Origin: Poseidonibacter antarcticus
Lineage (GTDB): Bacteria > Campylobacterota > Campylobacteria > Campylobacterales > Arcobacteraceae
Reading direction: 5' to 3'
Assembly (NCBI RefSeq): GCF_003667345.1
Contig: NZ_RCWF01000001.1
Location: 1-64,000, forward strand
Length of the DNA stretch: 64,000 nucleotides
Part shown: positions 29,426-44,107 of the stretch, piece after piece
Layout of the letters: each line of letters opens with the position of its first letter
Numbering within the stretch: position 1 is the first letter of the stretch
Program-made: the position numbers and the translations under genes
Notes under the pieces: generated by a model
Told to the model about the DNA's origin: nothing
Database searches by the model: none
Seen by the model: only the letters and a program-made list of their open reading frames with translations

Positions 29426-29704
29426 ATGATTACACTAGTAAATAAAATATCTTTGTATAACACTTTTGGTGTTGATAATTTTAACTCTATTGAGGAGGCC
29501 ATAAATACTATGGCCCCTTCTATGGTAGAGTACTATTTATCAGACTTAAGTGAATATTCTGAGGACATTTATTTAAATAAAAAAGATATAGAAAATACTC
29601 TTTCATTAGGGGATTATAACTTATACATAGATTATAATGATAATATCTATTTAGAATTAGACAATAATCAAACTTCAGTTTATGAAACAGCTTCTTTCTG
29701 GTAG
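29426..29704 (+). CDS. Small acidic protein, unknown function
   Basis: A 92-aa protein, rich in Tyr, Asn, Asp and Ser, with alternating hydrophobic residues that suggest beta strands (DYNLYIDYNDNIYLELDN). There are no cysteines, membrane spans or known motifs. It starts 11 bp after the coiled-coil gene and ends 13 bp before the convergent xerH. The reading frame and base use match its neighbours, so I take it as real. Confidence 0.6.
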   Translation: MITLVNKISLYNTFGVDNFNSIEEAINTMAPSMVEYYLSDLSEYSEDIYLNKKDIENTLSLGDYNLYIDYNDNIYLELDNNQTSVYETASFW

Positions 29705-30826: not shown

Positions 30827-30840
30827 TTAGTCTTGAAAAC
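30827..30840 (+). repeat. Half-site repeat of the dif-like arm
   Basis: TTAGTCTTGAAAAC, identical over 14 nt and in the same direction as 32039-32052, the left arm of the dif-like site beyond xerH2. It lies in the xerH1-xerH2 divergent gap, but the second arm and centre are not present here, so it looks like a partial copy or single binding site. Confidence 0.5.
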
Positions 30841-30890
30841 AAGCGTTATATTTAGTATAATAGAACAACAAAATAGTAAATATATTATAA

Positions 30891-30918
30891 TTTGGAAATT
30901 ATAGTTTCCAAAAGTAAA
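30891..30918 (+). repeat. Dif-like site 1 (imperfect palindrome upstream of xerH2)
   Basis: Arms TTTGGAAA and TTTCCAAA (30891-30898, 30905-30912) around an asymmetric centre TTATAG. Twenty-four of 28 nt match the reverse complement of 32038-32065. Size and layout (two ~11-bp arms, ~6-bp centre) are those of a Xer recombination site. It ends 28 bp before the xerH2 start codon. Use as a recombination site is inferred. Confidence 0.55.
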
Positions 30919-30946
30919 TAGTATATATTTGATTAAAAGGTTAAAA

Positions 30947-31999
30947 TTGAAATACCCATTAGACTGTGAAGCTTCATTTAAAAATACATACTTGTTTTGG
31001 TTATCAAGGTTTATTAGAAATAAAATTACAGGTTTATCAAATAGACAAGTTAACAATAAAGAACGTTTAGCTCAAATACTTCAAGAACTAATATTAGGTT
31101 TTGATTCAATTAAGGAATTGAAACTTGTAGTTAAGGAAGTTAGAAATATAGGAATTAATAGTATTCATGTATATTATATACCACTTGAAAAATTATATAC
31201 TTTTTTAATTAATTATGGTGCTGCATCTATGAAAGAAATTGATGAAGAATTACTAAGTGATTTTTTAGCTACTGAAACAAGTACATTATCAGATGCTACA
31301 AAGAAAAACTATAGAATTGCTTTAATTACCTTTTTTAATTACTTAGATAAACAAAATGAAGCAGAAAATGGAAATGTCTATAGATATGGAATTGAATTAA
31401 AAAATTGGGGTGGTCTATCTGGGAAATCTGGTACAAAACTACCCTCTTTTATGCAAAAAGATGAAGTTAGTACTTTTATACAAGCAATTGAATCTTATCC
31501 CTTTAGTTCAAAAATAGCTGCAAGAAATAGACTTATGATAAAAATAATTCTATACACAGGAATAAGAGTTAGCGAAGCAATAAATATTGATTTAAAAGAT
31601 TTTAATAAAGATGGCAATGCTTATATTATACAAGTTAGAGGAAAAGGAAATAAGCCTAGAGTTGTTATGATTAAAGAAGAAATTATTAGAAAAGATTTAA
31701 AAGAATGGAATGAAGTTAAATCTTCTTCTAATAATTTACTTTTATGTAATCAAAAAGGTAATCCTCTAAGCCAAGCTTATATTAGTAGTATAGTAGAAAA
31801 AATACTTTTAAGTGTTGGAATAAGAAAAGAAAAAAATGGTGCTCATATGTTAAGACATACTTTTGCTACAATGCTTTATCAAAAAAGTAAAGATTTAATA
31901 TTAGTTCAAGAATCATTAGGACATGCAGATATTAATACATCTAGAATATATACACATTTTGATAAAGATAGATTAAAACAAACTACAGATATTTTTTAA
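30947..31999 (+). CDS. XerH-type tyrosine recombinase (copy 2)
   Basis: Paralogue of the divergent gene at 29718, similar over the whole length and roughly 60% identical by eye. The catalytic residues are intact: TGIRVSEAI, RGKGNKPRV, HMLRHTFAT, and LGHADINTSRIYTH. The most conserved stretches are SMKEIDEELLSDFLA and ELKNWGGLSGKSGTKLPSFM. The start is TTG at 30947 (350 aa; AAAAGG 6 nt upstream), and the N terminus MKYPLDC then aligns with MRYDLDF of copy 1. Dif-like sites in opposite orientation lie on both sides of the gene, so it could act on its own locus. Confidence 0.9.
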   Translation: MKYPLDCEASFKNTYLFWLSRFIRNKITGLSNRQVNNKERLAQILQELILGFDSIKELKLVVKEVRNIGINSIHVYYIPLEKLYTFLINYGAASMKEIDEELLSDFLATETSTLSDATKKNYRIALITFFNYLDKQNEAENGNVYRYGIELKNWGGLSGKSGTKLPSFMQKDEVSTFIQAIESYPFSSKIAARNRLMIKIILYTGIRVSEAINIDLKDFNKDGNAYIIQVRGKGNKPRVVMIKEEIIRKDLKEWNEVKSSSNNLLLCNQKGNPLSQAYISSIVEKILLSVGIRKEKNGAHMLRHTFATMLYQKSKDLILVQESLGHADINTSRIYTHFDKDRLKQTTDIF

Positions 32000-32029
32000 G
32001 TAAAAATGAAAAGTTTTTTTACTTAAAAA
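31993..32029 (+). repeat. AT-only hairpin at the end of xerH2
   Basis: Perfect 14-bp inverted repeat TTTTTAAGTAAAAA / TTTTTACTTAAAAA around a 9-nt loop, overlapping the xerH2 stop. No G-C-rich stem or clear T tail, so only a weak terminator candidate. Confidence 0.4.
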
Positions 32030-32037
32030 TAAGTCAT

Positions 32038-32065
32038 TTTAGTCTTGAAAACTATAATTTTCAAA
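32038..32065 (-). repeat. Dif-like site 2 (downstream of xerH2, inverted relative to site 1)
   Basis: On the plus strand it carries TTGAAAA...TTTTCAA arms (32045-32051, 32058-32064) around CTATAA; on the minus strand its centre reads TTATAG like site 1. It resembles, from memory, Campylobacterota difH, whose arms carry GAAAAC/GTTTTC. Of the two sites it is the one closer to that pattern. It lies 24 bp after the cheB stop on the minus strand. Confidence 0.6.
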
Positions 32066-32088
32066 CAAAGATATAAATAGTAAAATAT

Positions 32089-33162
32089 CTAAACTTTTTT
32101 ACCTTCTGAATAATGTATAATATTTTGTGCAATTTTATCTAATGGAATAATATCTTTTACTGCTCCTATTTTTATAGCTTTTGCTGGCATACCAAATACT
32201 ACACAAGATTTTTCATCTTGTGCAATTGTATAAACATTATTATCAAACATATTTTTCATTGCTATCATTCCATCATCACCCATACCTGTCATAATTATAG
32301 CCATTGCACTTGATCCTATAACATTATTTACAGATCTATATAAAACATCTACACTTGGTTTATGCTGACTAACTTTTTTTGTATCTAATAATTTAATTCT
32401 GTATCCTAATCTTGCTTTTTCAATTGTTAAATGCATATTACCAGGAGCTAAATATGCATGTCCTTTTTCTAAGATCATACCATCTTTTGCTTCATTAACA
32501 ATTACTTCTGAATTATCATTTAATCTATGAGCAAGTGAATTTGAAAAACCATAAGGAATATGTTGAACAATTAATATTGGAGGTAATTGGGAAGGGAGTT
32601 CTAAAAAAATTTTTAATAAAGCTTCAACACCACCTGTTGAAGAACCCATTGCAATTATCTTATCTCCTTTCCCTTTTATTGGACGAGAAGGAATAACATC
32701 ATCAGGATGAATTTTATATTCAATTTCCTGAATGGTACTTTTTTTTTGAATTAAAGCTTTAGGTTTCTTCAAGGTATATCTTTTAAGTAAGAAAGTTAAA
32801 CTTAAGAGAGTTTCTTTTATTCTTTTGTGAAAAGATATCATTGATTCTTTTGCTTCTGGTTTTGGAATAAAACCAACTGCTCCATCATCAAAAATATCAT
32901 TGCCACGTACGCCCTCTCCTGAAATAATAACAGCAGGCATTGGATGAAGTCTCATTAAGTTTCTTAAAAAAACAACACCATTCATTTTAGGCATATTTAT
33001 ATCAATAGTTACCATATCAGGTTCATATTGCTTTATTTTTTCTCTAGCATCAAAAGCATCTACAGCACTTGATATAACTTCAAACTCATCTATATCATTA
33101 ATCATATCTTTTAAGATTCGTCTCATTGAAGCTGAATCATCAATAACTAAAACTGTATACAC
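32089..33162 (-). CDS. cheB: Chemotaxis methylesterase CheB
   Basis: Removes methyl groups from chemoreceptors. The N-terminal receiver domain has acidic residues in VIDDSASMRR and the phosphorylated Asp in MVTIDINMPKMNG. The C-terminal esterase has serine in MGSSTGG, histidine in QHIPYGFSNSLAHRL and aspartate in MTGMGDDG. I choose the GTG at 33162 (357 aa): the protein then starts MYTVLVIDD, and GGGTGG lies upstream. The open frame runs on to 33375, but that part overlaps cheD and is Lys/Leu-rich noise. It ends the che operon. Confidence 0.94.
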   Translation of the reverse strand: MYTVLVIDDSASMRRILKDMINDIDEFEVISSAVDAFDAREKIKQYEPDMVTIDINMPKMNGVVFLRNLMRLHPMPAVIISGEGVRGNDIFDDGAVGFIPKPEAKESMISFHKRIKETLLSLTFLLKRYTLKKPKALIQKKSTIQEIEYKIHPDDVIPSRPIKGKGDKIIAMGSSTGGVEALLKIFLELPSQLPPILIVQHIPYGFSNSLAHRLNDNSEVIVNEAKDGMILEKGHAYLAPGNMHLTIEKARLGYRIKLLDTKKVSQHKPSVDVLYRSVNNVIGSSAMAIIMTGMGDDGMIAMKNMFDNNVYTIAQDEKSCVVFGMPAKAIKIGAVKDIIPLDKIAQNIIHYSEGKKV

Positions 33163-33187
33163 AAAGAACCACCCTATTTCATAAAAT

Positions 33188-33859
33188 CTAAAAAAGTTCA
33201 ATTTCCATTTGAGCTTCTTCCTTTTCAATTCCGAATAAATCAACTGCACCAACGTATTCTTTGATAACTGGTGCTTTTGTAATCTCTTTTTGTAAAGATT
33301 TTTCTTCAGATACAATTTTACTATCTGTTTCACTTTTTTGTGTAACTTTAATAAATGTTTTAAAATCATTAGCAAGTAAGATCAATCTACCATGTTCTCC
33401 TCGTGTATGTTCACTTATTAAGGTAAAACCTTCTGATCTACAAAAGTCTTTTGCAAATTCCACATTTCTTTGTCCAATAGATTCAGATGAAACATTAATC
33501 TGCATAATATCAGCACCACCAGATATTTTTGCAACCATATTTTTTTTGCTACATCCTAATTTATACATTTCATTAAGCATTGCTTCAACAGAATACAATC
33601 CATATTTCATATCATCATTGTTATTATCTGTTGTAGGAAGTAAAAAGTGATTCATCCCTTTAATTTTATTAACTTTATCAAAAAACATAATGGCAACACA
33701 AGATCCTAACAAAGTTTTAAAAGCAATTTCTTCAATATCATTTCCAACTGCAAATTCTCCACCAATTACTGTGTGAGTAAAGAAACCTTTTGTTTTTTGT
33801 GTATATCTTATAGCAGAAGTTTTTTCAATACTTCCATCTTTATGTCCGATTATAATCAA
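33188..33859 (-). CDS. cheD: Chemoreceptor glutamine deamidase CheD with C-terminal extension
   Basis: Deamidates receptor glutamines to glutamates. Catalytic Cys in LLGSCVAIMFFD and His in IKGMNHFLLP are present, plus KISGGADIM and GQRNVEFA. The protein is 223 aa, about 60 longer than usual, because of a Lys/Glu-rich tail ending VDLFGIEKEEAQMEIELF. That tail could bind CheC, CheA or a receptor, but this is a guess. Its start overlaps the cheR stop by 4 nt. Confidence 0.93.
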   Translation of the reverse strand: MIIIGHKDGSIEKTSAIRYTQKTKGFFTHTVIGGEFAVGNDIEEIAFKTLLGSCVAIMFFDKVNKIKGMNHFLLPTTDNNNDDMKYGLYSVEAMLNEMYKLGCSKKNMVAKISGGADIMQINVSSESIGQRNVEFAKDFCRSEGFTLISEHTRGEHGRLILLANDFKTFIKVTQKSETDSKIVSEEKSLQKEITKAPVIKEYVGAVDLFGIEKEEAQMEIELF

Positions 33860-43891: not shown

Positions 43892-43912
43892 TTATTAAAT
43901 TTATTTGAATAT

Positions 43913-43960
43913 CCAAGTAGCCGTTAACCATCAACTTGGCCCTAAAAAGCCAATAACTGC
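43913..43960 (+). promoter_or_regulatory. Leader RNA with two alternative folds
   Basis: Three stems can form: A, CCAAGT (43913-43918) with ACTTGG (43934-43939); B, TTGGC (43936-43940) with GCCAA (43949-43953); C, GCCGTTA (43920-43926) with TAACTGC (43954-43960, one mismatch). B and C stack end to end and exclude A. The layout looks like a regulated leader, but it matches no riboswitch family I know. Confidence 0.4.
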
Positions 43961-43993
43961 ATATAAGAGGAGTACATTAGGAGCGAGAACATA

Positions 43994-44107
43994 ATGAATC
44001 ACTGCACACCATACTTCTACAATTACACGCACAAATACAGTATCGGACCCTCAACAATGGAAATCCCGTACTACTTAGATGGCGATATTCTATCTAAAGA
44101 TGATTGA
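43994..44107 (+). CDS. Orphan 37-residue tyrosine-rich small protein
   Basis: An ATG with AGGAG 10 nt upstream opens a frame of 37 codons ending TGA. It begins MNHCTPYFYNYTHKYSIGPS and ends DGDILSKDD, with six Tyr and one Cys. All six Tyr codons are TAC, and TTC, ATC, CAC and GGC are used, whereas neighbouring genes mainly use T-ending codons. This implies a foreign origin or strong selection, as in highly expressed genes. No modifying enzyme or partner is adjacent; it is convergent with hemD and stops 8 bp before it. I recognise no family. It could also be part of a structured RNA rather than a coding gene. Confidence 0.42.
   Translation: MNHCTPYFYNYTHKYSIGPSTMEIPYYLDGDILSKDD

Follow-up and report, generated by a model that had tools for sequence, protein, structure and literature searches.

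The question raised by this locus is what one chromosome does with two xerH genes and two difH-like sites lying side by side. The common view of Xer/dif is that of a fixed housekeeping system, passed on with the chromosome. The window, meaning the whole stretch of 64,000 nucleotides that was analyzed, comes from a member of the Arcobacteraceae close to Poseidonibacter and carries both genes and both sites (Table 1). Elsewhere the window also has a purD RNA motif (RF01069) above gathering score at 43911-44020 on the reverse strand. The original prediction was that the two sites form an inverted Xer pair around xerH2, that one of them may be the real difH, and that recombination between them would flip the gene. 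The reading favored here, with a probability of about 0.78, is that this Xer locus at the terminus holds two complete and separately specific XerH/difH systems, which resolve joined daughter chromosomes, and is most likely an intermediate in the replacement of one system by the other.

Table 1. Features of the xerH/dif locus, in window coordinates.
Feature	Position	Strand	Remarks
SFW gene, left locus marker (92 aa, ends SFW)	29426..29704	+	flanks xerH/dif locus in most of the family
xerH1, native B-type XerH recombinase, 352 aa	29718..30776	-	PF18644 + PF00589; 5jjv XerH E=2.5e-108
Native difH left half TTAGTCTTGAAAAC	30827..30840	+	exact 14-nt direct repeat of 32039-32052
Promoter-like TTGAAA-N17-TATAAT toward xerH2	30833..30861	+	11/12 consensus, best in region
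Inserted unit, 1212 bp including one repeat copy, with dif2 and xerH2	30841..32052	+	absent between same flanks in G002, G007
dif2 = site 1, variant difH: left arm ACTTTTGGAAA, centre CTATAA, right arm TTTCCAAATT	30889..30915	-	
xerH2, A-type XerH recombinase, 350 aa, TTG start	30947..31999	+	PF18644 + PF00589; 5jjv E=1e-96
Probable terminator: perfect 14-bp stem-loop at xerH2 end	31993..32029	+	repeat search
dif1 = site 2, native canonical difH: left arm AGTCTTGAAAA, centre CTATAA, right arm TTTTCAAACA	32041..32067	+	
cheB, right locus marker	32089..33204	-	flanks xerH/dif locus in most of the family

Site 1 (30891-30918) reads TTTGGAAATTATAGTTTCCAAAAGTAAA and site 2 (32038-32065), taken as its reverse complement, reads TTTGAAAATTATAGTTTTCAAGACTAAA. 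The two sites are inverted, agree at 24 of 28 positions and have the same centre, TTATAG; the repeat search extends the match to 45 nt at 76%. When the two 300-bp flanks were put through 2000 dinucleotide shuffles, the best inverted 28-mer match stayed below 24 every time, with 23 in seven shuffles; therefore, the match is not due to chance. Exact matches to TTGRAAACTATAATTTYCAA occur in the 2.92-Mb genome only at these two sites. Site 1 stops 28 bp short of the xerH2 start codon, TTG at 30947, with a further in-frame TTG at 30929, and site 2 starts 38 bp past the stop codon (31999). The predicted geometry, two inverted sites of Xer type bracketing xerH2, was thus borne out when it was recomputed. 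In the repeat search the two genes also show up as an inverted pair (72-79% over 732 and 264 nt). A direct 14-nt repeat of the site 2 left arm occurs at 30827-30840, at a spacing of 1212 bp and beside xerH1, where it is half of a further dif copy. This repeat had been missed by the earlier reader. The stem-loop at the end of xerH2 was missed by the terminator scan because it is A/T-rich.

Both genes encode proteins with the features of XerH. Each has a Phage_int_SAM_6 (PF18644) and a Phage_integrase (PF00589) domain, the best solved relative of each is H. pylori XerH (5jjv), and the six catalytic residues (R213, K239, H309, R312, H335 and Y344, as named in PMC5241119) are intact in both. The proteins are 66% identical to each other, and XerH1 is 87% identical to its counterparts in the sister species G002 and G007. 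The dN/dS values of 0.11 for xerH1 (against G002) and 0.145 for xerH2 (against G001) indicate that both genes are under purifying selection. An unusual loss of family-invariant residues was not seen in XerH1 or XerH2. Decay of xerH1 was considered and set aside; three conserved residues are changed, which is within the range of its relatives, and its branch is longer than those of its sisters.

The two sites are of different types. The core of site 2, TTGAAAACTATAATTTTCAA, is the canonical difH core and is identical to the one published for Arcobacter and most Campylobacter (PMC3325230). Site 2 also has the inverted arms, the 6-bp centre, T4 and the inner arm bases of difH, is intergenic and low in G+C, and lies before cheB in the same position and orientation as in G002 and G007. 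Site 1 has the core TTGGAAACTATAATTTCCAA. It keeps T4, the centre and the geometry, but in place of the canonical inner arm TTGAAAA/TTTTCAA it has the TTGGAAA/TTTCCAA found in a clade of XerH genes here called A. The expectation that one site is the real difH therefore holds for site 2, the native difH, while site 1 is a difH variant. The core and orientation of site 1 are those seen upstream of close xerH2 relatives, and the spacing is similar. The difference between the sites falls at base pairs 9 and 22 (H. pylori difH numbering), within the inner 5 bp of each arm. The XerH of H. pylori reads the inner arm base by base, and mutation there abolishes or greatly reduces cleavage (PMC5241119).

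The same two site types divide the XerH proteins of the family. Among 126 distinct XerH, sites of type A (TTGG..CCAA) accompany 33 and sites of type B (TTGA..TCAA) accompany 60; 59 of the type B sites were read directly beside the gene, while that of xerH1 was assigned to be site 2. Type A is a single XerH clade (SH-aLRT 99) with all 60 type B proteins outside it, so that the XerH tree has a single change of site type and the pairing of protein type with site type is strict. A third site type, TGAAAACAT..TTTTCAC, occurs in another XerH clade. Residue 73 is Asn in 60/60 type B and His in 33/33 type A proteins, and residue 74 is Thr or Ile in B versus Val or Leu in A. Residue 73 falls within the N-terminal part of XerH (aa 12-88), which makes most of the base-specific contacts (PMC5241119). 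Residue 73 tracks the arm difference and may be a specificity code, a candidate which, like the A/B pairing, rests on essentially one evolutionary event, the origin of the A clade. Two A-clade proteins (G022 and G089) have Ser73, and the sole exact site in their genomes is of the TTGA type, 33-35 kb off; this is what co-variation would predict, by an indirect link between gene and site. In both genomes xerH lies beside the SFW gene (G022, L250/L251 and L074; G089, L105), and in G022 difH lies beside cheB. In the proposed mechanism, XerH1 would act at site 2 (dif1, TTGA arms) and XerH2 would act at site 1 (dif2, TTGG arms), and both systems are probably active.

This pairing bears directly on the predicted self-inverting cassette, in which XerH recombines sites 1 and 2, flips xerH2 and switches its expression. 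In favor of such a cassette, the sites are truly inverted, with the common centre CTATAA and 24 of 28 positions alike. However, the arms differ at the base-read pairs 9 and 22, and the two arm types go with different XerH proteins. Inversion would make two hybrid sites, yet true A/B hybrids number 0 among about 93 typed sites; the lone mixed site, in G090, marks the modified end of an inserted phage. Conservation of the site pair in close relatives had been set beforehand as a test, and the pair is kept in none of those examined, each of which has one xerH and one site. The lack of conservation, the differing arms, the separate recombinase for each arm type and the absence of hybrids together make inversion of xerH2 very unlikely. 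Given the identical centres, rare cross-recombination of the two sites is possible. Should any Xer reaction act on xerH2, the direct repeat (30827-30840 and 32039-32052) would predict excision over inversion.

The history of the locus supports two systems of separate origin. The sample comprised 104 genomes of the family, with XerH in 97. Usually a single xerH lies between the SFW gene and cheB, with a single difH-like site about 20-115 bp upstream of it. A tree built from flanking genes (hemN, prmC, pepF, cheB, cheD, cheR and cheA) shows at least 8 switches between A and B, and these genes have kept their positions. Since the XerH tree shows a single such switch, xerH and its dif have been swapped as a pair, again and again, at the same position. 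The left-flank genes place the window with G002 and G007 (support 98), both of which carry only xerH1 and a full dif1; therefore, the B type is native to the window genome. The next clade, the A-type Poseidonibacter, has only dif2 and xerH2, in the order SFW - dif2 - xerH2> - cheB. Without xerH1 and both dif1 pieces, the window would have exactly the arrangement of this sister Poseidonibacter clade. A local inverted duplication of one xerH-dif module, with the copies diverging later, would also give adjacent, inverted modules that are 66% identical. However, xerH1 groups with G002 and G007 (support 99) and xerH2 falls in the A clade (SH-aLRT 99), which is common to many genera. The two genes therefore diverged long before this species, and duplication is scarcely credible.

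The xerH locus lies 50-56% of the chromosome from dnaA in complete relatives with dnaA at the contig start, so the orthologous locus is at the replication terminus, a position taken from the dnaA and xerH positions of these relatives because the window genome is in 55 contigs. This position also bears on whether site 1 is a mere operator for XerH control of xerH2 and no recombination site. In favor of an operator, most A-type genomes have such a site 20-60 bp upstream of their xerH. In A-type relatives, however, it is the sole exact difH-like site of the chromosome and is at the terminus, and a dif adjoining xer is usual in single-recombinase systems (PMC2731167). A function as operator only is therefore improbable.

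The preferred reading of two XerH/difH systems leaves the question of how the second one arrived. The left flank follows G002 and G007 up to TTAGTCTTGAAAAC, after which those genomes run on into difH and the window runs into the insert; on the right, a full difH reappears after xerH2. The half-site at 30827-30840 is at the normal difH distance from xerH1, where G002 and G007 have a full difH, and its right half is replaced by the insert. The native difH is thus split at the sequence level. A foreign dif2-xerH2 unit of the A clade would have landed between the two arms of the native difH; the native left arm would have stayed beside xerH1, with an intact difH at the far side of the unit. Insertion seems to have left the footprint of an IMEX, with an intact dif at 32041-32067 and the left arm only at 30827-30840. 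IMEX lack a recombinase of their own, whereas xerH2 is the sole gene of this insert. A mobility gene besides xerH2 was not found in the insert. The centre at the half-site is CAAGCG versus CTATAA in dif1, with only the first base in common; since so little matching sequence is left in the centres for strand exchange by Xer, the unit may instead have come in by homologous or illegitimate recombination. A misassembled draft join is also possible, although the contig measures 524 kb and both junctions have unique sequences.

The -35 box of the promoter-like element toward xerH2 falls within the dif half-site, and promoter-like hits in the region occur at the number expected by chance. As a speculation, XerH1 bound to the half-site could repress xerH2. 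A motif GAAAAC-N5-TTATATWTAGTATAATA, which is found without mismatch only in the window and in genome G061 among the 104 genomes, was considered as a common element end but was downgraded, because the emergence of a TTGAAA-N17-TATAAT promoter at that position would account for it as well.

The footprint also suggests that dif2-xerH2 could be a still-mobile element of the IMEX kind. XerH1 would recombine the half-site at 30827-30840 with site 2, excise a 1.2-kb circle and restore dif1, and the circle could invade another difH. A modified dif at one end and an intact dif at the other are also seen in LME-1 and GGI (PMC9765430), and phage elements have a like footprint at difH in three other genomes of the family (G087, G090 and G070, described below). 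In H. pylori a difH with the left arm only is bound and cleaved as well as the full difH; by analogy, the half-site could be a substrate. However, the two centres have very little homology, and the repeat copy has the AGTCTTG variant of the host lineage, so the repeat may be a local duplication. The circle itself was not seen. A close relative of xerH2 was also not found on plasmids, phages or viral contigs (best 28-37%, plus one 65% B-type viral-contig record). Present mobility is therefore rather doubtful as an explanation.

Replacement in progress, the preferred reading, has a parallel in the family. Only one genome besides the window, G061, has both full modules among the 104. Here an island of about 20 kb with GmtY, GmtZ, GmtX, dif2-xerH2 (84%) and defence-like genes lies within the native difH. 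Its dif1 is split into TTTTAGTATTGAAAACTTTAATT beside cheB and TTTTCAAACAAATAT beside xerH1, and the sister genome G065 has the unsplit TTTTAGTATTGAAAACTTTAATTTTCAAACAAATAT. G061 is a second, independent case of dif2-xerH2 splitting a native dif1. The native dif is destroyed in this case, and the chromosome would have to rely on the module that came in. The GmtY of G061 is the sole one over the family cut-off among the 104 Arcobacteraceae. The island (G061:C1:1264657-1284880; L061/L062/L121) also has 6A-MBL-type defence genes and a BrxD-like ATPase.

Other elements are found at difH as well. Three genomes have an insert between a full and a modified difH: a filamentous phage with a Zot-like protein, a secretin and a replication protein in G087 (L249:5344-15430), a coat-P2-like phage in G090 (L248:1877-11190), and a lysozyme-bearing element in G070 (L247:2831-14854), the bounding sites of which score in opposite orientation. 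Judged by these arrangements, difH is an integration site for phages in the Arcobacteraceae.

Additional xerH genes occur in two further genomes. G005:C131 (L065:1850-4640) has a decayed type-A xerH cluster, with one intact and two broken frames, inside a tolC-like gene. Inverted repeats of about 24 bp (GGTAC..CATACCACTT) enclose the cluster, which has worn TTGG-type sites, and it looks like a xerH-carrying transposable element. In G078:C2 (L063:7474-12175), two more divergent XerH-like genes share their contig with genes of resolvase-like and HipA-like type.

These results may be extended, tentatively, to a general model in which xerH-difH pairs are self-contained 'usurper' units. Such a unit would invade a resident difH, break or displace it and supply dimer resolution, after which the old system could be lost; the Asn73/His73 switch would keep the two systems apart. 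Within one bacterial family, a single locus has seen Xer/dif swapped at least 8 times, and the old and the new system coexist in two genomes, with the new one inside the site of the old one. How site-specific recombination systems get replaced is therefore directly testable here. A natural recombinase pair of differing arm specificity is also useful for mapping XerH-DNA recognition and is a possible orthogonal recombination pair.

A search of open-licence papers found no report of two XerH modules or of XerH in Poseidonibacter; the locus does resemble several known systems in part. The IMEX LME-1 of Legionella and GGI of Neisseria (PMC9765430) also have an intact and a modified dif at the ends of the insert. 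In contrast, the window insert has no phage or island genes, has a second xer gene with its own dif, and keeps only one arm at its modified site. XerT of the H. pylori TnPZ (PMC3325230) is, like XerH2, a second Xer-like recombinase beside the housekeeping XerH and is associated with mobility. However, XerT is divergent and belongs to a large conjugative transposon, while XerH2 is a true XerH with orthologues that are the sole chromosomal XerH of many relatives. The Gamma-mobile-trio islands (GmtX/Y/Z; NF040693, NF047926, NF040692) are represented by the G061 island in difH with its dif2-xerH2; GmtY and the Gmt trio are absent from the window genome. The locus also resembles XerH/difH of Helicobacter and Campylobacter (PMC2731167, PMC3325230, PMC5241119). 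XerH1 and XerH2 share with that system the XerH-specific N-terminal domain and the full catalytic set, and site 2 is a canonical difH by its gene's locus at the terminus. Site 1 differs from the canonical difH in having G/C in place of A/T at base pairs 9 and 22. The genomes described for that system have one module, whereas the window has two XerH and two difH at one locus.
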